DNA of 64,000 nucleotides from Coriobacteriales bacterium. Lineage in GTDB: Bacteria; Actinomycetota; Coriobacteriia; Coriobacteriales; UBA8131. Positions 16,859 through 30,583 of this stretch are shown one piece after another. The stretch covers positions 1 through 64,000 of the forward strand of contig JAITDU010000048.1 of NCBI GenBank assembly GCA_031282405.1. The letters are read 5' to 3'. The notes under the pieces are model-generated. The model was not told the origin of the DNA. It saw only the letters and a program-made list of their open reading frames with translations, and ran no database searches. Position 1 is the stretch's first letter; every line of letters starts with the position of its first letter. The translations under genes and the position numbers were made by a program.

Positions 16859-16900
16859 TGTCTTGAACCAACGCCTTTTTGGTGCGGGTGAAAGGACTTG
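16859..16900. repeat. 42-bp direct repeat: duplicated 3' end of tRNA-Leu (distal copy)
   Basis: Identical to 17022-17063, which spans the last 21 nt of the tRNA-Leu gene (CCA, acceptor strand and half the T arm) and 21 nt of its downstream flank. Such duplicated tRNA ends are typical of past site-specific integration. Confidence 0.85.
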
Positions 16901-17017
16901 CGCGTATTGCTGTGTCGCTTCGCGTCTTGCAATCCGCAGGCTGTCGTTCGCTTGCGCTCGCTTCGCCGCAAACAGTCCGCTGGACTGTTTGCCCTTCGCA
17001 GGTTCAAGTCCTCTCAC
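16888..17017. repeat. 130-bp element with inverted ends derived from a tRNA T arm
   Basis: GTGAAAGGACTTG (16888-16900) is repeated inverted with one mismatch as CAAGTCCTCTCAC (17005-17017). Between them are further GC-rich inverted stretches and a perfect hairpin at 16968-16992. It is non-coding and may be a small mobile element or remnant beside the tRNA gene. Confidence 0.6.
16968..16992. repeat. perfect 11-bp hairpin
   Basis: GCAAACAGTCC-GCT-GGACTGTTTGC forms an 11-bp stem with a 3-nt loop. It lies about 50 nt past the tRNA-Leu 3' end on the minus strand and could stop tRNA transcription, although no T run follows. Confidence 0.75.
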
Positions 17018-17042
17018 ACTATGTCTTGAACCAACGCCTTTT

Positions 17043-17130
17043 TGGTGCGGGTGAAAGGACTTGAACCTTCATGAGGGTAAACCTCACATGGACCTGAACC
17101 ATGCGCGTCTGCCAATTCCGCCACACCCGC
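17043..17130 (-). tRNA. tRNA-Leu (anticodon CAG), CCA encoded
   Basis: An 88-nt class II tRNA. The acceptor stem GCGGGTG pairs with CACCCGC, followed by A and an encoded CCA. The anticodon arm is CATGG-TTCAGGT-CCATG with anticodon CAG. A variable arm and the T arm GGTTCAAGTCC follow. The promoter region is shared with the divergent amidohydrolase gene at 17193. The 3' end is duplicated at 16859-16900. Confidence 0.95.
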
Positions 17131-17192
17131 ACGCGCGGCAGAGTCCTATGGTACCATATTGGTTTCATGCAACCAAGGAAGGACAATGGGAC

Positions 17193-18032
17193 ATGCAGCA
17201 GCCAAGCAGCCAAACGGGCATTCAGTCAAGCACTGTGCGAGTTGATATCCACAGTCATATCTATCCGGAAAAAATCGCAGCCAAGGCGGTGGAAAGTGTC
17301 GGGCGCTTTTATGGCATCGAAATGTCTGCCGATGGCAGTTCCGCGGCACTGCGCGCATTGCAAGAGCAGGCCGGCATCGACTACTCGGTAGTGCATTCGG
17401 TGGCCCTCAAGCCTAACCAGGTACGCACGATCAACGATTTTATTGCCGAGACCTGCCAAAAATACCCCTCTTTTATCGGCTTTGCTACCATGCACCAGGA
17501 CTTTGAGGATATGGAAGCGGAGGTGGAGCGCGTCATTGCGCTGGGCCTGCATGGCTTTAAGCTACATCCCGACTCGCAGGGGGTGAATATCGACGATATA
17601 CGCCTGATGCGTTTCTACTCTCTGATCGAAGGGCGCCTACCCGTCATGTTGCACTGTGGCGATTATCGTTTCGACAACTCGCATCCCAAACGCACAAAGC
17701 GGGTCTTGCGGGAATTCCCCGGGCTCGTGGCCAACTGCGCCCACTTTGGCGGCTGGTCGCTCTATGACCTCGCCGTAGAGTATCTTGAGGATGAAAACTG
17801 CTTCATGGACATCTCCAGCGCCTCGGTCTATCTGGGGCCACGGCGCACGACCGAGTTGATCCGACACTATGGCGCCGAGCGCATCATGTTTGGCTCAGAC
17901 TTTCCGATGTGGAATCCGGTCCGCGAACTGGAGCGCTTTATGCTCAACGATCTGTCAGCCCAAGAGCAAGAACAGGTACTCTGGCACTCGGCCGAGGACT
18001 ACCTGGGCATGGAACTCACAAAGCCATCCTGA
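17193..18032 (+). CDS. amidohydrolase-family metal-dependent hydrolase
   Basis: 279 residues of the amidohydrolase_2 TIM-barrel type. Metal-binding residues are visible in DIHSHIYP (HxH), MLHCGDYR, ANCAHFGGW and the late Asp in FGSDFPMWNP. Members act as decarboxylases or hydrolases on cyclic or aromatic acids; the substrate is not predictable here. ATG 17193 is used because the longer frame from 17061 runs through tRNA-Leu. AGGAAGGA lies about 10 nt upstream. A run of 13 G begins 27 nt after the stop. Confidence 0.87.
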   Translation: MQQPSSQTGIQSSTVRVDIHSHIYPEKIAAKAVESVGRFYGIEMSADGSSAALRALQEQAGIDYSVVHSVALKPNQVRTINDFIAETCQKYPSFIGFATMHQDFEDMEAEVERVIALGLHGFKLHPDSQGVNIDDIRLMRFYSLIEGRLPVMLHCGDYRFDNSHPKRTKRVLREFPGLVANCAHFGGWSLYDLAVEYLEDENCFMDISSASVYLGPRRTTELIRHYGAERIMFGSDFPMWNPVRELERFMLNDLSAQEQEQVLWHSAEDYLGMELTKPS

Positions 18033-20454: not shown

Positions 20455-22086
20455 TTACTCGCTATCCAATTGCATGTTATCGACCAACTCCATCAACTCT
20501 TGTTGAGAATGTACATTGAGTTTTTTGTAGATACGCCAGGTGTGGGTGTTGACCGTGCCTTCAGCGATGAACAGTCTCTGAGCAATATAGGCCGCATTAC
20601 GACCCTTGGCAAGCAGATAGAATACGTCAATCTCACGATTGGAGAGCAGGTAGGTATTAGCGGTCTTTTCGCAACGGCGCAGGAAGCGACCACGGTTATC
20701 GCCGGTGTTGTCCTGGTCTGAGGAGCCTGCAACATCGGTAGTGCCATGGTCTTCGATGATTGCCATTTCCATGATCGCCTTAGAGCGCGGCATCAAAAAG
20801 TAACCCAAGAGCAGGCTGATAATCATCAGCGTAGTGACAAAGCCCACGCCAGAGGCGACGATTCGGTCGGCCTGCAGTGCCTCAACGAGACCAATACCAA
20901 CAAGCATCCCCAGCATCATAAAGCCCATACCGGTGCCGGTCACAAGAATGGGCGATATCCGATAGCGGTGCGACATCTCGCAAAATTCCACCCAGACCAT
21001 AAACAAAAAGAGGATGAAGCAGATAAAAACGATCATTGTCAACGGTAGGGCCTCGCTGAGCACGCTGGTAAAGAAAAGCAGTATTGAGACCAGCGGGATG
21101 ACAAAACGGTAGAAGGAGTCGTATTCATCGGTACGATTGACGCTGAGCAACAAAATGACCAACAAAAGGGCAATAAGGCTTGCAGCCAACAAGGTGATTG
21201 TCGCCAGACCATCCTCAATGTTGCGGTTGATGTTGTAGAGCAGCGAAAAACACCAGCAGGTCAAAGGGCCAAAAGCTATGCCAAACAGAAGTGACGGCCC
21301 GCCCATTCTCACAATGAAGAAAGGTCGTCGTACACGCAGACGATGAAACGTCGGTATCTCCAAAAGGCCGGGAGCGGCAACGCGGGTACCCGTGGCGTCG
21401 TACTCGAAGCGCTGGGGGCTCATCAAGGCTTGAAGGCCGTGGAGCGCAAAAAGCAGGAGGGCTATTTGAAACAGCGGTAGGAAACTCAGAATGACTACAC
21501 TGATGTCTCCTGGCACAAACTGTTTAAGTAGTCCAAAAGCCAGAAATGCCAGCGTCTGACCAAAAATAGCGTTGAGTACGATAGAAGGGGTCTCCTGACG
21601 CCGGAACACCTCGCTCCAAATCAAAACAAAGAAACCGGCCGTAGCCCCTAAGATCAGATAACTGAACAGGGTGAGTGGGTAGATGTCGAGCCGCAAAGAC
21701 TGAAACAGCACAACCGTACCAAAGGCCATCATGACGGCAGCACAGATCTGTACCGAACGCATACGAATAAAATAGGTAATGGAGCGGCCGAGAACGGCCA
21801 TACAAGTAGCTATAGCCAAAAAAACGATTGTCGGCAGAGGGTTTAAGGTATTGCTGATAATCAAAAGCGGCGTGTACAACGAATCAATGATAGGAAACGA
21901 AGCAAAAATGATGGCGTAGACCCAGACCCACAAAAGGCAGCTCCCAAAGACCATGGGCGGCGAGAGCATACGGATATACGTCGGGATATTACGAATGTTG
22001 ATATACGGAGATGCACTGGCATCCAAGGCGGAAGGGCGCTCAATATCGCCTGGAGCTATGACGGTATCTTTAGTTTCCGTTGCCAC
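20455..22086 (-). CDS. LuxR-type regulator with about 12 membrane helices
   Basis: 543 residues. About 12 hydrophobic helices (roughly residues 40-440) precede a C-terminal LuxR HTH: LSNREIDVFYLLAKGRNAAY, then FIAEGTVNTHTWRIYKKLNV. This membrane-bound regulator type is strongly expanded in Eggerthellaceae, where members lie next to and control molybdoenzyme operons. GTG 22086 was chosen because GAGGAG lies 5 nt upstream. It is probably the switch for the adjacent molybdopterin locus, sensing the substrate through its membrane part (inference). No receiver domain is present. Confidence 0.9.
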   Translation of the reverse strand: MATETKDTVIAPGDIERPSALDASASPYINIRNIPTYIRMLSPPMVFGSCLLWVWVYAIIFASFPIIDSLYTPLLIISNTLNPLPTIVFLAIATCMAVLGRSITYFIRMRSVQICAAVMMAFGTVVLFQSLRLDIYPLTLFSYLILGATAGFFVLIWSEVFRRQETPSIVLNAIFGQTLAFLAFGLLKQFVPGDISVVILSFLPLFQIALLLFALHGLQALMSPQRFEYDATGTRVAAPGLLEIPTFHRLRVRRPFFIVRMGGPSLLFGIAFGPLTCWCFSLLYNINRNIEDGLATITLLAASLIALLLVILLLSVNRTDEYDSFYRFVIPLVSILLFFTSVLSEALPLTMIVFICFILFLFMVWVEFCEMSHRYRISPILVTGTGMGFMMLGMLVGIGLVEALQADRIVASGVGFVTTLMIISLLLGYFLMPRSKAIMEMAIIEDHGTTDVAGSSDQDNTGDNRGRFLRRCEKTANTYLLSNREIDVFYLLAKGRNAAYIAQRLFIAEGTVNTHTWRIYKKLNVHSQQELMELVDNMQLDSE

Positions 22087-22304
22087 ATGAACTCCTCGTA
22101 CCGGCTGCATGAGACAACCCGCCCTGTGCCGGTGTTTTCCAGGGCAAGCAACTACAGGCACCTACACTGAGTCATTCTCTTTTCTTGTACAGACTATCAC
22201 ATCTGGGCACAGCACTACAATGAGGCGCCCGGTGTTCTTCGAAATCTATAGTCAACGGATCAGTATGCGTTTCATGTACCCAATACCCATCAGGAGATCA
22301 GCCA

Positions 22305-22976
22305 TCAGCGTATTCGCAAACCAGATACGACCGAGCCCGCGACACCGTCATCGCCAACATCGCTGACCAAGCTATTAGCTTTCTCAAGCATGGTGACTGC
22401 ATCGTCATAAGTCTCGCTGAAGAACCGGCGCCCCGCATTAGCATCATAATAATAGGGTTTGTATTCGTCGAGTACCTTGAAGAGACTGTTATTTTCCAGG
22501 GCCCGACGCGTAGTCTTAATGTAGTTTTGGTCATAGCCGGAAGCATCCAGCAAGCCTTTAAGAAGAGTGGGGAGCTTATCATAGTCAGTATACTTATGTA
22601 TATAGGCACTGACGGCAGCGTCCTTTGCCAAATCAAACTCGTCAAACTTGGCTTGGAGATTGACAAAGCTCGGTATAAAGTCCAGCCTGTCATCCGGAAA
22701 TCCAGCATAATAATAAGCTAACATAAATTGCTCTATGCTGTTATAGATGGTATAAAAGAAAGGTATGAGAGAGCGGGCATCAGATGTACCCTCCGGAGGG
22801 GCACCATGAGCCTCGACATAATCCTTATAGCGTCCCTCATTCATCATATCGTCAAGGCTGCCTGTGGTAAGCGCATGATATTTGTCTATGAGGTTTTTAA
22901 CCAAGAGTAGATATTTGCCCGAAGATATCCAGGCAGTTTTAGCTAAAAGATACGTAAATTCGTCGGCCTGAGCCAT
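22305..22976 (-). CDS. unrecognised helical protein of the molybdoenzyme locus
   Basis: 223 residues, predicted soluble and mostly helical, rich in Tyr, Phe, Asp and Lys, with no signal peptide and no cysteine. Aromatic runs such as PFFYTIYNSIEQFMLAYYYAG and YKPYYYDANAGRRFF stand out. ATG 22976 has GGAGGA 6 nt upstream, so the longer frame, which overlaps the transporter remnant, is rejected. It lies between the regulator and carrier genes. A TorD-like molybdoenzyme chaperone or a HEPN-like helical bundle are possibilities, but I see no diagnostic motif for either. Confidence 0.72.
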   Translation of the reverse strand: MAQADEFTYLLAKTAWISSGKYLLLVKNLIDKYHALTTGSLDDMMNEGRYKDYVEAHGAPPEGTSDARSLIPFFYTIYNSIEQFMLAYYYAGFPDDRLDFIPSFVNLQAKFDEFDLAKDAAVSAYIHKYTDYDKLPTLLKGLLDASGYDQNYIKTTRRALENNSLFKVLDEYKPYYYDANAGRRFFSETYDDAVTMLEKANSLVSDVGDDGVAGSVVSGLRIR

Positions 22977-23040
22977 GCCTATCCTCCTTAATTGTTCAGC
23001 ATAACTTAAGTTGGTTTTTTGCCGGTCGTCAACCGAGCTT

Positions 23041-23117
23041 TTATTCCAGCTCCTTGGCAATAGTGACAAGATCAGCCTTATACACCTTGCCAAAGGCTAC
23101 GGTCACCACCAGAGCCG
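23041..23117 (-). pseudogene. 3' remnant of a second OFA-family transporter gene
   Basis: Directly after the stop of the intact carrier gene a different frame reads VAFGKVYKADLVTIAKELE and then stops. The intact gene ends FGKVYKNDLTTIAKELE. The remnant is thus the last ~20 codons of a deleted or fused tandem paralogue, best explained by unequal recombination between two transporter genes. Confidence 0.85.
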
Positions 23118-24386
23118 TTATTCCAATTCCTTGGCTATGGTGGTCAGATCGTTTTTGTAGACCTTACCAAATACAAATGAGACAAGGAAGGCCACGACCG
23201 CTAAACCGGCCAATAAACCATAGATGATCGGCCCATTTGCCGCTGCCGGCGAACCCAACACTGCCACAATGACGATATTGATAACGGCGGCAGAAGCAAT
23301 GTTGCAGTTGGCAATGCCGAGGTTTTTAGCAAAGCCGGCCGCTCCATAACGTTGGCGAGCATAAGCCGAGGCCATAACCGGCACCGCACTGTAGGGAAAC
23401 GCCACCAAAATAGCCGCAACCACGTATAAAAAGCCAATGCTAAGCGCCAAAGCAGCCGCCAGGCAAATCATCGTGCCAATAGCAAACGCCGCAGCTATCA
23501 GCATGACAGGCAAAAGGCCCGCTTTATCAAATATGGAGCCGTTGATAATCCGGCCAATGCCATTCATCGTCGAGACCAAGCCCACCAGCAAAGCGGCAAA
23601 ACCGGCATCAAAGCCTAGCAGTGTGGCCCCCTGACCGGCAGTGCCAATCAGGGTAAGGCCGCAGGCTATAACGATGGTTGCCCATACGGAATACAGCCAA
23701 AACACCCTTGTCGTAAGAATGCCTTGTTGTTGAGTGGAGCTTTGCTTTGTGGTGGCAGCCGCCCCGCTCAAACCCAACTTTTGGGCAATATCTTTAGGGG
23801 CAGGCTTGACGGTAAACGCCAGGACAACCATGATGATAAAGGCCACGATGGCGATGATGATGAACACCGCAGTCCAATCCATAATGCCGAACATAGCGTT
23901 GGCCACAGAGCCAAAAACCAATGACGAGATACCAAAGCCCATCATCTGCACACCGGAGCAAAAACCAATGCGGTCGGGAAACCAGGGGTTGACGAGCGAG
24001 ATGATGGCATTGTAGGCAATGCCGCAGCCTGAACCGGCAAAAATACCATAGAATATAAACAGCGCCCACACACCCATGCCGGCACCATAGGCAGTCAGGA
24101 CAAAGCCGACCGCCATCAAGATGGCAGCTACGATAATGGTGAGTTTGGCAGAGGTTTTTTTGATGAGCTGTGCACCGCCCAAGGCCGAGAGGCAAAACGC
24201 AAACATCGAAACCTGGAACACTTGGGGCAACAAAGGTTTATAAGACTCATAGTTTGCGCCTATGGGAGCGGCAAATATCGACCAGGCGTAAATCAAACCC
24301 AGTACCAACAGCGTAATGGTGGCAAATACGAGATAGAATATCCTCTTGCCCTTGATTTGACTAACGCTCAATTCCGTTGGACTCAT
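23118..24386 (-). CDS. MFS transporter, oxalate/formate antiporter (OFA) type
   Basis: 422 residues with 12 membrane helices. The OFA family is suggested by the opening LGLIYAWSIFAAPIGANY, the Gly-rich GIFAGSGCGIAYNAIISLVNPWFPDR and the second-half STMNGIGRIINGSIFDK. Such carriers exchange or import small carboxylates. It has no partner enzyme for oxalate here, so within the molybdoenzyme locus it more likely moves a substrate or product acid. A short remnant of a paralogue follows its stop. The start at 24386 is the only good one. Confidence 0.9.
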   Translation of the reverse strand: MSPTELSVSQIKGKRIFYLVFATITLLVLGLIYAWSIFAAPIGANYESYKPLLPQVFQVSMFAFCLSALGGAQLIKKTSAKLTIIVAAILMAVGFVLTAYGAGMGVWALFIFYGIFAGSGCGIAYNAIISLVNPWFPDRIGFCSGVQMMGFGISSLVFGSVANAMFGIMDWTAVFIIIAIVAFIIMVVLAFTVKPAPKDIAQKLGLSGAAATTKQSSTQQQGILTTRVFWLYSVWATIVIACGLTLIGTAGQGATLLGFDAGFAALLVGLVSTMNGIGRIINGSIFDKAGLLPVMLIAAAFAIGTMICLAAALALSIGFLYVVAAILVAFPYSAVPVMASAYARQRYGAAGFAKNLGIANCNIASAAVINIVIVAVLGSPAAANGPIIYGLLAGLAVVAFLVSFVFGKVYKNDLTTIAKELE

Positions 24387-24440
24387 TTGGCCTCCTCATA
24401 GCCTCGCTTCTGCAGCTTCAGATATTACACTTCACTATCT

Positions 24441-24626
24441 TTATCTGGTACCGGGACGTACTCGCTTAACGGTAGTAGGGTCAAGCAGCGCGCCACATTT
24501 TTTACACTCTGTCGCGCTGGGGCTATTAAAGGTATTGCAGTGCCTGCAAAACCCTCGGGGAACTATCTTGGATTGAAACCCGCCCTGACAGCGCCCACAG
24601 CCAGAACAACCATAACCACAAGACAT
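24441..24626 (-). CDS. small zinc-ribbon protein
   Basis: 61 residues from ATG 24626, which has AAGGAG 7 nt upstream. The N terminus is Cys/Gly-rich (MSCGYGCSGCGRCQGG), and the C-terminal half holds a zinc-ribbon/rubredoxin-like knuckle, CRHCNTFNSPSATECKKCG. It probably binds one or two metal ions. No enzymatic signature is visible. It lies 54 nt upstream of the OFA carrier and may be expressed with it. Confidence 0.75.
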   Translation of the reverse strand: MSCGYGCSGCGRCQGGFQSKIVPRGFCRHCNTFNSPSATECKKCGALLDPTTVKRVRPGTR

Positions 24627-24749
24627 TGCATAACTCCTTCGTTTTCTACTCAAAGCGAGGGCTCACACGACTGTAACAGACGTATGAGCCCTGTACATAT
24701 CCCACTGGGGACATCAGCTTTGGGCTACCCACAAGCCCCAAGGAGCCAA

Positions 24750-25064
24750 TCAGGCACCGGGAGGCTTAGGAGCTCCGGGAGCACCTGGAGGCTTGGGAGC
24801 ACCAGGGGCACCAGGGGGCTTAGGAGCGCCGGGAGCACCTGGAGGCTTGGGAGCACCAGGGGCACCTGGAGGAGCCGGGGCACCAGGGGCGCCTCCGCCC
24901 ATAGCACCAGCTATCTTAGCCTTGTACTCCTCTTCGTACTTGCTTAAATCGGCTTTACAAAACGGGCATTTCTTCATGACAACGCCGCCGATTACCGCAA
25001 GTTTCTTACCACACTCTGGACATTCTGGATCGGGCAAGTCCACGCCCGCTGGCCTAAAACACAT
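24750..25064 (-). CDS. zinc-ribbon protein with Gly-Pro-Ala repeat tail
   Basis: 104 residues. The first 50 contain two Cys pairs, ECPECGKK and KKCPFCKADL, forming a zinc-ribbon. The rest is a collagen-like low-complexity tail of GAPGAPKPPGAP units, encoded by repeated DNA of about 27 nt per unit (24757-24890). ATG 25064 has GGGAG 5 nt upstream and a TGCTATAAT promoter 40 nt upstream. The tail may be a flexible linker or interaction surface. The function is unknown; it sits in the molybdoenzyme locus. Confidence 0.75.
   Translation of the reverse strand: MCFRPAGVDLPDPECPECGKKLAVIGGVVMKKCPFCKADLSKYEEEYKAKIAGAMGGGAPGAPAPPGAPGAPKPPGAPGAPKPPGAPGAPKPPGAPGAPKPPGA
24757..24890. repeat. in-frame GC-rich tandem repeats encoding the GAPGAPKPP tail
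   Basis: About five degenerate units of roughly 27 nt, combining GGAGCACC(A/T)GG and GGCTTRGGAGC blocks. Long identical stretches make copy number likely to vary between strains. Confidence 0.85.
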
Positions 25065-25103
25065 ACGTTCTCCCAACTAGGTTTACCTACTACTTACGCT
25101 CCT

Positions 25104-25109
25104 ATTATA
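25104..25109 (-). promoter_or_regulatory. extended -10 promoter of the zinc-ribbon gene
   Basis: On the minus strand TGCTATAAT gives a consensus -10 with the TGn extension, 40 nt before ATG 25064. No good -35 is present, as usual for extended -10 promoters. Confidence 0.6.
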
Positions 25110-25207
25110 GCACGACTTTCTGTTGGCCTATAGCCTAATCGGCAAACAGTCACTCAAGACACCCAGTTGTCTCTTTTTACGAATCAACCGGGGGGATCAA
25201 AGCCCGC

Positions 25208-25513
25208 TTAAGAGAGACCCGTGCCCTTGATGGCCTTTTCGTTCTTGGCTTTATCGCCCACCATCGCAGCTCCCTTGATAATCTCGCTTTCAGCCTCGTT
25301 ACCGCTGAGCCGAGTGGTCTGATAACCACGCATCGGCTTGATGTTGAATGCTTTCTTCGGTGGTACATAAAACACGCCGATCTTGCCCAGGCCGGATTTG
25401 TCTGTGCCAAGTGTGGCATAGACATCCTCCGGTGTCTTACCAGCCGCAAGCTGTTCATTGAGCCAAGTCTGCTGCTCTTCAGTGCTCAAATCAACAAATT
25501 CATCAAAAGTCAT
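25208..25513 (-). CDS. small protein with HTH-like N terminus
   Basis: 101 residues from ATG 25513 (GGAGGG about 8 nt upstream). The stretch WLNEQLAAGKTPEDVYATLG followed by TDKSGLGKIGVFYVPPKKAF has the spacing of short HTH proteins found in Firmicutes and actinobacteria. The C terminus is Lys/Gly/Ala-rich and looks unstructured. It follows the ferredoxin-like subunit by 123 nt on the same strand, so it may be a local regulator or an accessory protein. The family is not firmly recognised. Confidence 0.65.
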   Translation of the reverse strand: MTFDEFVDLSTEEQQTWLNEQLAAGKTPEDVYATLGTDKSGLGKIGVFYVPPKKAFNIKPMRGYQTTRLSGNEAESEIIKGAAMVGDKAKNEKAIKGTGLS

Positions 25514-25636
25514 AGCAGTACCCTCCTTCAAAATCCTAGTCGCGTCCATTGCCACGGGCCTAAACAGGCAATGTGTCAGCGGCAACGAACCTTGGTGGAT
25601 GGCCCCGCCTTGAGCGGGGCCATCGTCAAAATCCTG

Positions 25637-25990
25637 TTACGGCCTGATGATGCTTACTTTATGGCCAATCTCCTGAGCGCGCTTGGCAAGCTCATCGATG
25701 GGTCCATACTCAATGCAAAACGCCAGACAGTGATGCACGCACGACGGCTTCTTGCCAGCATCCAGACGGTCTGCGCACAAATCGCACAACGCCGTAGGAA
25801 CGGGAATATAATCCCAGTCCCAAGCATCCGGGTCATCCTCATCCAGATGATAGGGGCCTTTCTCCAAAACCACGATACCGGGCTTTTTGGCCAGGTCTGT
25901 CTTGAGGTGGTATTTGCAAGCCACCTCGCAGGTGTGGCAGTTGGAGCAGTACTTATAGTCAAACAAAAGACCATAGTTCTCGTATGCCAT
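25637..25990 (-). CDS. two-cluster ferredoxin-like electron-transfer subunit
   Basis: 117 residues. CSNCHTCEVACKYH supplies one [4Fe-4S] motif. CDLC, then SCVHHC with a further Cys (LAFC), supplies the second set. It resembles a shortened DmsB/NrfC-type subunit, which normally has four clusters and about 200 residues. It starts 29 nt after the molybdopterin enzyme with GGAGG upstream, so the two almost certainly form a complex. It carries no Tat or Sec signal, so the complex is cytoplasmic, and no membrane anchor of the DmsC type is encoded. Confidence 0.9.
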   Translation of the reverse strand: MAYENYGLLFDYKYCSNCHTCEVACKYHLKTDLAKKPGIVVLEKGPYHLDEDDPDAWDWDYIPVPTALCDLCADRLDAGKKPSCVHHCLAFCIEYGPIDELAKRAQEIGHKVSIIRP

Positions 25991-26019
25991 TTCATAACCT
26001 CCTTCTCAGGCGACTTGTC

Positions 26020-28521
26020 CTAGTACTGGACTTCCAAAGAAAGTCCACTCGGCGCGGGAATTACGCCATCCGCAACATAGGTCGGCTTGTTCTTCTGAGT
26101 TTCCAGGGCTGCGGCGACACCCGGTCTGTGCGTGCTGTGGTAGTCGAGTACACGCGCCGGATCGACACCTTCGTCGGCAACCAGTTCATCCAGATCCTTA
26201 ATGATGTCGTAGCTCTTCTTAACTTTCAAGCCATGCAGATCATCGACCTTCTTGATGGAACAGAACACGCTCTTCATCGGAGCGCCAAAGCCAAGACGAC
26301 CAATGTCAAAGTGCGGTACCAGGTTGTTAATATTGGACTTCCAAACGCCAAACAGGTTGGGCTCTTCACCGTCCTGCTCCGGATACCACCAGCCATGACG
26401 TGTGTGTACCACGCGCGGGTCGATGGTAACGACCAAGGTGGCTTTCTGACGTGCCCGACCAAACGGATTCTCGACCTCTACCCAGTCGCCCTCTTGGATG
26501 CCATAGGCGGCAGCCGTGTCGGGATGGATCTCGATGTCGGGATACTCGCGGAAGTGGCGCAGGTTCGGGAACATGCGATGCTCGGAGTGGAACGTATTGT
26601 ACTCACGAGCACCCGTGCACATCATAAGCGGATACTTGTCGGCCAACTCGGGATGGCTCACCGGGCTCCAACGTGGCTCCTCAAAGTAGGGCAGCGGATC
26701 CTCGCCCCACGCATCGAAGAGCGTGGAGTACAGCTCCACAAGACCGGTAACTGTATTAAAGCCGGGTTCGCCGTCGAAACGCAGCAGGCCCTTCTCATAC
26801 TTACGATACGTGAAACCGGGCTGATACAGACCAATGCGGCGCAACTCGTCAAAGTCAAAGCCTAACTCCGGCTCAGTCTGCTTGGAGAAGAAATCCGGCA
26901 CAAACTTATCGCGCGTATCGCCCTCAAAGACGTTCCAAGTCGAGGTGCCATCAGGGCCGGCGTTGTTCAGACGCTTGCCAAACTCGATGCAAATCTCGAC
27001 ATCGGACTTTGTCTCGCCGACGCGCAGCGCCTCATTCATTGCACCCAAAAAGACTGTGTTGCGGCCATAGTGGGTGATGACAATAGCGTCATGCTCGCAG
27101 ACGGTAGGCAGCGGCAAAAAGACATCGCCACAGGCCATGGCCGTGGGGGTCATGACGAGATCCTGGACCACAACGAACTCAGCCTTGAGGAAGGCATCAT
27201 GCCAACGGATCGGAGCTGCCGAGCAGGTCGGAGCCAAGAGGTTTGAGCTGTTGAACCACAGCATCTTGATCTCGTAGGGCTCACCGGTCTCCAGCACGTC
27301 GAGTGTGTAGTCCGGATGGGTTGTGGCCATAGCGTTAGACAGTGCCGGATACTCAGAGGAACCCAGGCGCTTGTCCCACAGATCGGGGGCCAGGTCCTTA
27401 CGGGTTTCCATACGCCACTTACCCAAAAGCGATGAGGGCGGGCCAACGCACAGACCACCGGGGATATCGATATTGCCGGTTATCGCCTGAAGGGCGATGG
27501 TGATGTGGCCGACCTGCGTGCCATTGGGGCTTTGGTCGACAGCCAGACCCCAAGCGATGGAGACAGGCTTCTCGGCCATGGCACGTGCGACTTTCTTGAT
27601 TTGCTCAACGGGGGCCCACGTTACCTCGGAGACGAGCTCCGGTGTGTACTGCAGGACGCGCTCCTTGAACTCGTCCCAGCCAAAGCACCATTTATCGATC
27701 CACTCCTGATCCTGGAGATTCTCGGTAACAATGACATTGGCGATGCCCAGACCGATGGCAGCGTCGGTGCCCGGCTTGATCTGCAGGTTCATGTTGCCTT
27801 CGCGCGCGCCGAGCCACGTAATACGCGGATCAATCATGATAATCTTGGAACCCAATTTCATCATATCGATAAGCGCGTGGCCAAACAGGCCGTCGCCGTT
27901 GGAGGCCAAGGGCATCTTGCCCCAGCAGACAACGTACTTGGGCAGTTCAAACTCGGGGTTGTCATAGCGATCCTCAAAGTAGCCGGCAAAGTCGATCTCG
28001 GGATAACCGGCACCGAGGATATAGTCGGTTATGGAGCACCGCGGTCCATAACAGGACCAACCGGACTGCGCATAACACACATTGGGGGTCTGCAGGGTCG
28101 AAAACGCCAGCGGGTAATAGTAGATGCACGCCTCGCGGCCCGTACCACCAAATACCAGAATCGACTCGGCACCATAGGTCTCCTTGAAATAGTTGACCTT
28201 ACCGCAGACCAGATCAAAAGTCTCGTCCCAGCTGATGCGTTCCCATTTGTCCTTGCCTCTGTCACTGGGATCACGCTTCATCGGATAGACGATACGCGAA
28301 GGGGAGTGCACTATCTCGGGGAAGTCCAACGCACGGATGCACAGGCGCCCCTGTGTAATAGCGTGTTCCTCGTCGCCTTCGACGTCAATCAACTTGCCGT
28401 CTTTGACCGTCAGCCACATACCACAGCCAACGGGGTGGTCGCCCGGGGGTGACCAGCAGGTGGTGCGAACACTGACGGAACCGTCAGGGTTCTCTTTCTT
28501 CCACTCTCTACTCATTGCCAT
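26020..28521 (-). CDS. molybdopterin (DMSO reductase family) oxidoreductase, catalytic subunit
   Basis: 833 residues binding a bis-MGD cofactor. The N terminus has C22, C33 and C61 (CWSPPGDHPVGCG, then GRLCIRA) of an Fe-S motif, with Asp at 28 where I expect another Cys. The probable Mo ligand region is SGWSCYGPRCS (about 143-153). The C-terminal dinucleotide domain starts at MMCTGAREYNTFHSEHR. No Tat signal is present, so it acts in the cytoplasm. Size and layout resemble the transhydroxylase/acetylene hydratase/catechol dehydroxylase branch more than respiratory reductases; that placement is inference. Neighbours are a ferredoxin subunit, a LuxR membrane regulator and two MFS carriers. ATG 28521 follows AAGGAGG. 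Confidence 0.92.
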   Translation of the reverse strand: MAMSREWKKENPDGSVSVRTTCWSPPGDHPVGCGMWLTVKDGKLIDVEGDEEHAITQGRLCIRALDFPEIVHSPSRIVYPMKRDPSDRGKDKWERISWDETFDLVCGKVNYFKETYGAESILVFGGTGREACIYYYPLAFSTLQTPNVCYAQSGWSCYGPRCSITDYILGAGYPEIDFAGYFEDRYDNPEFELPKYVVCWGKMPLASNGDGLFGHALIDMMKLGSKIIMIDPRITWLGAREGNMNLQIKPGTDAAIGLGIANVIVTENLQDQEWIDKWCFGWDEFKERVLQYTPELVSEVTWAPVEQIKKVARAMAEKPVSIAWGLAVDQSPNGTQVGHITIALQAITGNIDIPGGLCVGPPSSLLGKWRMETRKDLAPDLWDKRLGSSEYPALSNAMATTHPDYTLDVLETGEPYEIKMLWFNSSNLLAPTCSAAPIRWHDAFLKAEFVVVQDLVMTPTAMACGDVFLPLPTVCEHDAIVITHYGRNTVFLGAMNEALRVGETKSDVEICIEFGKRLNNAGPDGTSTWNVFEGDTRDKFVPDFFSKQTEPELGFDFDELRRIGLYQPGFTYRKYEKGLLRFDGEPGFNTVTGLVELYSTLFDAWGEDPLPYFEEPRWSPVSHPELADKYPLMMCTGAREYNTFHSEHRMFPNLRHFREYPDIEIHPDTAAAYGIQEGDWVEVENPFGRARQKATLVVTIDPRVVHTRHGWWYPEQDGEEPNLFGVWKSNINNLVPHFDIGRLGFGAPMKSVFCSIKKVDDLHGLKVKKSYDIIKDLDELVADEGVDPARVLDYHSTHRPGVAAALETQKNKPTYVADGVIPAPSGLSLEVQY

Positions 28522-28743
28522 AATGTTCCTCCTTCTAGGACTCTTCTGGACAATTACCTACCACTCTATTTCCTGGGTTCGTTGAGGCTAGCGCGCGCCT
28601 CGCCGAACACCTGAAATACCTTTTCCTTCCTCTCCAACTGCTCCAGCCTGAGAGGGGCGCATTACCAAACGGCACTGCGCTACGTTGGCTCACTCACCTG
28701 GACGAATCTTCTACAGGCTCCATAGACGAATCCATTTGTCTTG

Positions 28744-28781
28744 GGACAGCACCTGCCGAGCGAAGCAGACAGGTGCTGTCC
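28744..28781 (-). terminator. strong 12-bp hairpin after the small membrane protein gene
   Basis: GGACAGCACCTG and CAGGTGCTGTCC form a perfect 12-bp stem with a 14-nt loop, 33 nt past the stop of the small membrane gene. No T run follows. It may end or attenuate transcription from the MFS gene, leaving the molybdoenzyme with its own promoter. The remainder of 28522-28743 shows no further feature. Confidence 0.6.
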
Positions 28782-28813
28782 ACTTTATGCGTGTGAGCCG
28801 ATCGGTCTCAATC

Positions 28814-29023
28814 TTACTTCTTGTTGCCCTTGGCAATTTCTGCGCCGGCAAAAATAAAGAAGTGGATGAAGGGCAGAATCAAAGCCGCCGACATCATCGG
28901 CAAAGCATAAGGCTGCCGCGAAAAACCGGGAATAGCAATAGGACAAATAATGCAGGCGATCAACATGTAAGCCAAGATGAGCATCATCACCCAAAAAGCC
29001 ACATCATTCTCTTTCTTTTCCAT
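28814..29023 (-). CDS. small two-helix membrane protein
   Basis: 69 residues with two hydrophobic helices (about 8-30 and 42-62) and a charged start MEKKEND. ATG 29023 has GGAGGG about 5 nt upstream and lies 9 nt after the stop of the MFS carrier, so it is cotranscribed and may be a carrier accessory subunit, as in other symporters with small partners. No named family recognised. The C terminus is basic (AKGNKK), suggesting both ends are cytoplasmic. Confidence 0.72.
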   Translation of the reverse strand: MEKKENDVAFWVMMLILAYMLIACIICPIAIPGFSRQPYALPMMSAALILPFIHFFIFAGAEIAKGNKK

Positions 29024-29032
29024 GATCCCTCC

Positions 29033-30583
29033 TTAATCCGCTATAACTTCGGTCACGAGTGTATCAAGGTCCTTAGCGGCAGTCTCGCGACGCAGGAAGA
29101 CGAACGTGCAAAGCAGACCGATGGCCGCAGGAGCCAAAAGCAGGAACATGATCTGGTTCCAGTTGCCTGCAAAGACCGGCGTGATAGCACTAAAGACAAT
29201 AGGTGCCGCGGCACCGCCAAAGCGAGCAAAGGCCTGACACCAAGAAACCCCGGTATTGCGTACCTGGGTCGGATAGCTTTCTGGCATCAACGGCTGAACT
29301 CCCGTGATAGCGAAGTTCATCGCGAAACCGATGAAGAAGAACAGGAACATACTGTAAGCGAAAGCACCCGGACCGACGGTCAGCGCAAATATGATAACCG
29401 CAACCATCAAGAACAGCCAGGAGAAGATAAGTATCCTCTTCCTGCCGAACTTATCGGAAAGGAAGCCTACCGTGACGTTGGAGCATATAGCGGCAACGTT
29501 GTTAAAGGTCTGCATAGCCGAGGCATCAGCGGGAGTATAGCCAAAGCCCGTCATCATCGGCACCATCCAGGGGTTGAGGCCATAGACGAATACCTGACCG
29601 ATGAAGTACATGGTCCAGATAGCAGCTGTAGCCACAATGAATTTTTTGCTGAACAGAATCCTGGGGTTAGCACTGGGGACCTTGGGCGGAACGATCAGAT
29701 TTGCCGTGACCAGGTTGGCATCAACAGGCCGACCAGCGGACTTGGTCAACTCGGTAAGACGCTGGACAGCTTGATCCAGCCTGCCAGAGTTGGCATACCA
29801 GTGCGGGGTCTCTTTCATGAAGAGAGCCAGCAATATGCCATAGAGCACCGGCAATACACCGATCAGATAGGCCAGGCGCCAGTTCTGAGTCAGATTAGTC
29901 AGGGTCTCGCCCGATGAGCCGGTCAGATCATAGTTAGCGATCATCTCCGGAGAGGCAAACGGAATCGCTATCGGGTCGGGAATACCATTAAGGGTAGTAA
30001 CCACCAGACCGGCGACAACCCAGCCGCCGACCATAAAGGCCATACCAAACGTAACGAACACACCGCGATTCTTGGACGGAATGGTCTCCGAGAAGCAGGT
30101 GGTGACCACCGGAATACAAGAACCAACGCCCAAGCCAGCGATAACGCGCGTAACCGCATAAAACGCGAAATCCGTGGCATAGGCCTGTGGCAGCGTAAAA
30201 GCGCCGTAGAAGATGATGGCCAAGACGAGCATCTTCTTGCGACCGATACGATCAGATATGATACCACCGAGAGCGCCACCGATAACCATACCCAAAAGAC
30301 TCCAGGATGAAATCGAGCTACCCAGAGCCTGAAGCGCGGCGGCCGGCTTACCGGTTTGCGCGTTGAGGGCAACATCGACTATAGAATAATCGGCGCCACC
30401 ACCCAATAAAGAAAAATGTTGCAGCGTGTTGGCTACGCTCGATGTCGTCTGGCTGGCGACCATGAAGTCGTAGCCATCGAAAATCATCGCGAAGCCCAGG
30501 AAAAAGAACATGATCCACGTGAACTTGTTAATGCCGAGTCGGTCAATAACATCAGAAACGGTGAACTTTTGACCTTCAGACAT
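29033..30583 (-). CDS. MFS transporter, aromatic acid:H+ symporter-like
   Basis: 516 residues with 12 helices. The first helix contains FLGFAMIFDGYDFMVAS, with the Asp pattern of the aromatic acid:H+ symporter (AAHS) and related organic-acid symporters. GGALGGIISDRIGRKKMLV is the canonical loop 2-3 motif, and FLSDKFGRKRILIF the loop 8-9 copy. ATG 30583 directly follows GGAGGAGAG. Expected substrate is an aromatic or other organic acid, which fits supply of the neighbouring molybdoenzyme. The long N-terminal ORF extension to 30760 is not supported. Confidence 0.88.
   Translation of the reverse strand: MSEGQKFTVSDVIDRLGINKFTWIMFFFLGFAMIFDGYDFMVASQTTSSVANTLQHFSLLGGGADYSIVDVALNAQTGKPAAALQALGSSISSWSLLGMVIGGALGGIISDRIGRKKMLVLAIIFYGAFTLPQAYATDFAFYAVTRVIAGLGVGSCIPVVTTCFSETIPSKNRGVFVTFGMAFMVGGWVVAGLVVTTLNGIPDPIAIPFASPEMIANYDLTGSSGETLTNLTQNWRLAYLIGVLPVLYGILLALFMKETPHWYANSGRLDQAVQRLTELTKSAGRPVDANLVTANLIVPPKVPSANPRILFSKKFIVATAAIWTMYFIGQVFVYGLNPWMVPMMTGFGYTPADASAMQTFNNVAAICSNVTVGFLSDKFGRKRILIFSWLFLMVAVIIFALTVGPGAFAYSMFLFFFIGFAMNFAITGVQPLMPESYPTQVRNTGVSWCQAFARFGGAAAPIVFSAITPVFAGNWNQIMFLLLAPAAIGLLCTFVFLRRETAAKDLDTLVTEVIAD

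Follow-up and report, generated by a model that had tools for sequence, protein, structure and literature searches.

Gene content and conservation of the locus

The window analysed here is a 64,000-nt stretch (positions 1 to 64,000) of contig JAITDU010000048.1 from the Coriobacteriales bacterium genome assembly GCA_031282405.1. Positions 20455-30583 of the window hold ten open genes, all on the minus strand, among them one for a cytoplasmic bis(molybdopterin guanine dinucleotide) (bis-MGD) molybdenum/tungsten (Mo/W) enzyme, here called MoE (Table 1). The original prediction, made from the letters alone, had described a candidate aromatic-reduction locus in which a 12-helix LuxR regulator, a cytoplasmic molybdopterin enzyme, a two-cluster ferredoxin subunit, an AAHS-like importer with a small membrane partner, an OFA carrier, two zinc-ribbon proteins, and a 223-residue helical protein are grouped on one strand; all of these genes were found open at the positions given for them, with the features assigned to them. 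MoE matched the profiles Molybdopterin (E=5e-24), Molydop_binding (3e-18), and Molybdop_Fe4S4 (2e-8), its N-terminus showed no twin-arginine motif or other obvious signal for export, and no membrane-anchor gene was found at the locus. Family searches with H223, U102, and TM69 gave zero matches. The H223 start at 22976 is preceded by a good ribosome-binding site. A regulatory role for the hairpin in the gap between TM69 and MoE was rejected, as the repeat is not conserved in relatives.

Table 1. Features of the locus, with positions in the window
Feature	Position	Strand	Basis or remark
AAHS-type major facilitator superfamily (MFS) importer, 516 aa	29033..30583	-	AAHS-like TIGR00895 match, E=2e-56, below the model's cut-off
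TM69, 69-aa membrane protein with two hydrophobic segments	28814..29023	-	9 bp past the importer gene
Perfect 12-bp inverted repeat without a T run, TM69-MoE gap	28744..28781	-	Not conserved in relatives
MoE, cytoplasmic bis-MGD (Mo/W) enzyme, 833 aa	26020..28521	-	Family profiles
Small iron-sulfur (Fe-S) subunit, 117 aa, 9 Cys, two [4Fe-4S] clusters expected	25637..25990	-	DmsB-like Cys arrangement
U102, helix-turn-helix (HTH)-like small protein (about 101 aa)	25208..25513	-	AlphaFold2 (AF2) model
ZnA, zinc ribbon A (MCFRPA...CPEC...CPFC) with P/G-rich tail	24750..25064	-	Weak zinc-ribbon model matches
ZnB, zinc ribbon B, 70 aa	24441..24653	-	Weak zinc-ribbon model matches
OFA/monocarboxylate-type MFS carrier, 422 aa	23118..24386	-	OFA/SfMCT-like match, 1.5e-54, below cut-off
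H223, 223-aa all-helical protein, no family found	22305..22976	-	AF2 model, predicted local distance difference test (pLDDT) 90
12-transmembrane (TM) LuxR-type regulator, 548 aa	20455..22101	-	12 hydrophobic segments and C-terminal GerE domain

The source genome is a 2.0-Mb metagenome-assembled genome (MAG) that is 88% complete and carries many MoE paralogues, the nearest at 50% identity. Most of the compared genomes are likewise incomplete MAGs, and some of the unnamed clusters may be artefacts of the neighbourhood gene calling. Nine MoE orthologues with 83-96% identity were found in the same family, along with a tenth that is cut by a contig end (G014). The order AAHS-TM69-MoE-FeS-U102-ZnA-ZnB-OFA-H223 was kept across about eight genera, apart from contig ends and two genomes in which part of the downstream block is missing (G005 and G030), and LuxR homologues lie beside most of the orthologous loci on varying sides. 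Flanking genes (truA, steA, and recN in L048) are common to loci only within a genus, so the gene block behaves as a unit, and the grouping is not chance. An accidental grouping of functionally unrelated neighbours is therefore extremely improbable, being refuted for most genes by this synteny and contradicted by a single-copy U102 that adjoins the enzyme and by the occurrence of H223 only in genomes with a window-type enzyme. The named relatives are Coriobacteriales MAGs, for example, Pc512_bin90 and Hm464_bin104. A termite gut is the probable host environment, since other MAGs with the same prefixes are from the termite Prorhinotermes canalifrons or named for Hodotermes (PMC11707648).

U102 is single copy in most genomes and, in those strong matches that were examined, lies beside the Mo enzyme, and its relatives are also present in Bacillota loci. 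Residues 1-60 of its AF2 model were well predicted; the secondary structure is compatible with a DNA-binding HTH, but the fold matches were insignificant, and that assignment was rejected. H223 was confined to 10 of 101 genomes, and no confident PDB relative was found for it by sequence or fold. It was not accepted as a TorD/NarJ-like chaperone (no PF02613 match, no PDB-sequence support, and no TorD among the fold matches listed; the only PF02613 match of the genome is on contig C30) or as a HEPN protein (a weak match of one member, E=0.14). The MCFRPA zinc ribbon, counted using a DNA pattern of its first six codons, had 30 copies in five genomes (G101, G102, G103, G050, and G000) against 0 for the reversed-pattern control, and 19 of these copies were at most 3 kb from an enzyme of the MoE superfamily. 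It occurs in Desulfosporosinus, Sporomusa, Desulfuromonas, and Peptococcaceae loci. Restriction of the ribbon to this clade was rejected: 11/30 copies have no P0001-type enzyme within 3 kb, and one copy has an Eldh homologue as its neighbour in Gordonibacter 28C. Nor is the gene combination peculiar to the locus, as relatives from several phyla occur together with the MCFRPA zinc ribbon and the HTH-like protein. In all 30 MCFRPA starts the Arg codon is AGA or AGG, despite a pattern that permits CGN and the GC-rich genome of Gordonibacter, which may reflect an mRNA constraint close to the start.

Placement and iron-sulfur sites of the Mo enzyme

Trees were built using FastTree for about 190 enzymes and IQ-TREE for 40 enzymes with the cysteine region omitted. 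Among the known dehydroxylases, Dodh was located in Gordonibacter genomes via published quantitative PCR primers (L195), (+)-Eldh1/2 were putatively assigned to an adjacent pair at 74.4% identity (published: 74%; L191), and Eadh1/2 were putatively assigned to a pair next to a PF04909 decarboxylase (L190). Cldh/Eddh, Gp Hcdh, and Gs Vadh could not be assigned by name in the trees, and an unassigned Gordonibacter paralogue may be one of them. MoE fell within an 18-row group (support 82, internal order not resolved) together with the cluster-free, E-type, and Gordonibacter D-type enzymes defined below. Bacillota and Desulfuromonas enzymes with 61-63% identity were just outside this group in the IQ-TREE tree and inside the enclosing clade in the FastTree tree. 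By this placement, MoE is a member of an uncharacterised clade extending to Bacillota and Desulfuromonas. A position inside a known unrelated reductase group, which the original prediction had named as the outcome speaking against it, did not occur.

Acetylene hydratase is a single-subunit hydratase and the reported closest characterised non-dehydroxylase relative of the dehydroxylases. It was the best solved relative of MoE by sequence (PDB 2e7z, E=8e-63) and shares a probable Cys metal ligand with it, although it has no transport operon. Its alignment with MoE begins at C33, downstream of the catalytic Asp13, which comes after the second cluster Cys and the region of which is unaligned. Judged by these matches, MoE belongs to the acetylene hydratase/dehydroxylase branch. 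The pyrogallol-phloroglucinol transhydroxylase (PDB 4v4c) is similar in being a cytoplasmic bis-MGD enzyme with an Fe-S partner and acts on an aromatic ring, but MoE differs from it in the probable Cys ligand and in three N-terminal Cys, and the match to its catalytic subunit PGTL was weak (E=1e-9 over 260 residues), far below that of acetylene hydratase.

The N-terminal Fe-S site varies within the clade. C28, C33, C61, and C64, which may be the cluster ligands, are found in most relatives, Dodh, Eldh, and Eadh among them. In window-type enzymes the residues are C22, D28, C33, C61, and A64, with H29 also at the site in MoE. The D-type carries C21, D28, C33, C61, and C64, and E-type enzymes have E28 and W33 with neither C61 nor C64. 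A cluster-free subclade has N21, T22, S28, Y33, N61, and N64, and at its loci (L057, L058, L060-L063, L080-L092, L119, L179, and L203) both the catalytic subunit and the partner "ferredoxin" are without Fe-S cysteines; the carriers include the mammal and bird gut relatives Gordonibacter, Paraeggerthella, Adlercreutzia, and Slackia. Among the species with the cluster-free version are Gordonibacter pamelaeae, where the locus is at 3.41 Mb, and Paraeggerthella hongkongensis. The small subunit had lost eight of its nine Cys in 20/20 cluster-free loci, while 8 or 9 Cys were retained in 21/21 other members, including the E-type (nine Cys). C157, a probable metal ligand, and the WSPPGxHPVG motif were invariant across the sampled clade, and because of this the members, cluster-free and rearranged types included, look like working enzymes. 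All nine alignable window-type small subunits retained nine Cys, so electron transfer in the window-type complex seems to be still under selection. Gordonibacter-type catalytic subunits without a canonical Fe-S motif were already stated in a review (PMC11574389), which makes the cysteine loss in the catalytic subunit alone less new; the new element is the cysteine loss in the partner small subunit. A description of the cluster-free subclade was not found in a literature search of open-licence papers.

Two further arrangements were observed among the relatives. Gordonibacter pamelaeae has, at L178 (3.370-3.384 Mb), an AAHS-type importer flanked by a tandem pair of Mo enzymes, of which one carries C28 and the other D28. 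Downstream of cluster-free Eggerthellaceae loci (L082:12609-18780, also L063, L080, L087, L089, L090, and L119), there is often an LRR protein, then a VWA-like protein and a fusion of MoxR-like AAA and methyltransferase parts.

Proposed function and alternatives

The locus is tentatively read as a substrate-induced module that imports a phenolic acid and dehydroxylates it reductively, with a probability of roughly 0.45, and aromatic reduction as such is plausible. A reductive uptake module is argued for because the layout and the regulator match those of known dehydroxylases. The Gordonibacter-type layout consists of a cytoplasmic bis-MGD enzyme with a small Fe-S subunit, MFS carriers, and a 12-TM LuxR regulator (PMC7028382, PMC11887054, PMC9734109). 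As at the locus, these dehydroxylases are two-subunit cytoplasmic enzymes with no twin-arginine signal and with an adjoining small Fe-S protein, and an MFS transporter and a LuxR-type regulator are co-located. DadR, HcdR, and CadR of Eggerthella lenta share with the locus regulator the 12 hydrophobic segments, the C-terminal GerE domain, and the adjoining Mo enzyme, whereas the orientation of the regulator varies among the orthologous loci. The Eggerthella-type catechol dehydroxylase differs in its twin-arginine-exported subunit and membrane anchor, both missing here.

By analogy with DadR, HcdR, and CadR, the 12-TM LuxR protein would sense the substrate and switch on the operon. Judging from its family, the AAHS importer with TM69 would bring in a phenolic or other aromatic acid, from which the cytoplasmic Mo enzyme would remove an oxygen substituent with electrons delivered via the two-cluster Fe-S subunit, and the OFA-type carrier would export or exchange the product. 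U102 and the two zinc ribbons may be enzyme-linked accessories, perhaps for assembly or regulation, and H223 would be an accessory specific to the window-type version of the enzyme. What the computations show is the gene content and its conservation, that U102 and H223 are strictly linked to the enzyme, where the enzyme falls in the tree, and that its cysteine pattern is altered. For the window version, the nine Cys still present in the partner speak for reduction, and the termite-gut MAGs among the relatives, as a lignocellulose setting, were counted for the phenolic-acid reading.

Several points weigh against this reading. MoE was apart from Dodh, (+)-Eldh1/2, and Eadh1/2 in both trees (SH-aLRT 99, IQ-TREE), with 37-42% identity to Dodh, Eldh, and Eadh and another N-terminal cysteine pattern, and U102, H223, and the full accessory set were not seen beside these located enzymes. 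The comparison with Eggerthellaceae catechol dehydroxylases in the original prediction held for the layout, and its aromatic-reduction reading is backed by the layout and by the kinship with acetylene hydratase and not by grouping with Dodh, Eldh, or Eadh. C28 and C64 are invariant in nearly all cluster-bearing relatives other than the D- and E-types, and the window has D and A at these positions. Reduction is not to be assumed, because near relatives of MoE include complexes without any Fe-S ligands, and these complexes share importers with window-type loci. The AAHS and OFA family assignments both fall below the curated cut-offs.

AAHS homologues with 51-82% identity adjoin the Mo enzyme in both window-type and cluster-free loci, with TM69 next to the importer in both. 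In L058, a cluster-free locus from the family of the window, the importer shares 77-79% identity with its counterparts in the window, L048, L052, and L055 and falls into one group with them (100/99). L050 and L051 carry window-type enzymes, and their importers are more similar to those of the cluster-free L060 and L063 (66-69%). This intermixing of importer lineages suggests that the two enzyme types act on related compounds. Either the chemistry is redox-neutral and can do without an Fe-S relay, or the two types treat the same compound differently.

A redox-neutral reaction on an imported aromatic or unsaturated acid (hydroxyl transfer between aromatic rings, hydration/dehydration, or isomerisation) is somewhat unlikely for the clade and stays a serious rival because of the cluster-free relatives and the shared importer. 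The Fe-S clusters would then be dispensable and lost stepwise, from rearranged ligands (window) to loss of the catalytic-subunit site (E-type) and to two cysteine-poor subunits (cluster-free). The paired loss in both subunits (20/20 versus 0/21), the invariance of C157 and of the WSPPGxHPVG motif through cluster loss, and a closest solved relative that is itself redox-neutral are consistent with this course, as is the E-type, which keeps a nine-Cys partner without a site of its own. Pyrogallol transhydroxylase also has a catalytic subunit without an Fe-S site and keeps its Fe-S partner, but its relationship to MoE is weak, and the nine Cys kept in every alignable window-type small subunit argue against dispensable clusters. 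Cluster loss is no proof of redox neutrality, because DorA, TorA, and BisC are cluster-free family members that still catalyse reductions. A more specific proposal, in which the clade is an unrecognised Mo/W class, redox-neutral on imported aromatic acids, with the Fe-S relay being dismantled (rearranged ligands in the window version, complete loss from both subunits in relatives of human and animal guts) and the zinc-ribbon/HTH accessory set conserved, is unlikely.

The substrate could also be non-aromatic (a carboxylic acid that is unsaturated or hydroxylated, or else an N- or S-oxide), with the enzyme being a respiratory reductase or oxidase. This is distinctly unlikely: the second carrier resembles lactate and oxalate-formate carriers, E-type relatives carry a DASS-type anion symporter, and relatives of MoE occur in acetogens and sulfate reducers, but the window family, several Eggerthellaceae, Sporomusa, and Desulfosporosinus all pair the enzyme with AAHS-type importers, and the closest Coriobacteriia enzymes of known function act on catechols.

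Flanking DNA and significance

The tRNA-Leu at 17043-17130 was the sole match of the RNA-element search. A 42-bp exact direct repeat of its 3' part lies at 16859-16900 and 17022-17063, with an inverted 18-nt copy at 17000-17017, which together look like an integration scar. An amidohydrolase-like open reading frame (17061-18032, judged by eye) adjoins it.

Dehydroxylases of this superfamily shape the processing of polyphenols and drugs by gut bacteria, and most are uncharacterised. U102 and the MCFRPA zinc ribbon are marked here as likely accessory factors of Mo enzymes in Coriobacteriia and Bacillota. With its intact, rearranged, half-lost, and fully lost Fe-S sites, the clade is a natural series for testing the need for an electron relay, and the series has members in the culturable genera Gordonibacter, Paraeggerthella, and Adlercreutzia.

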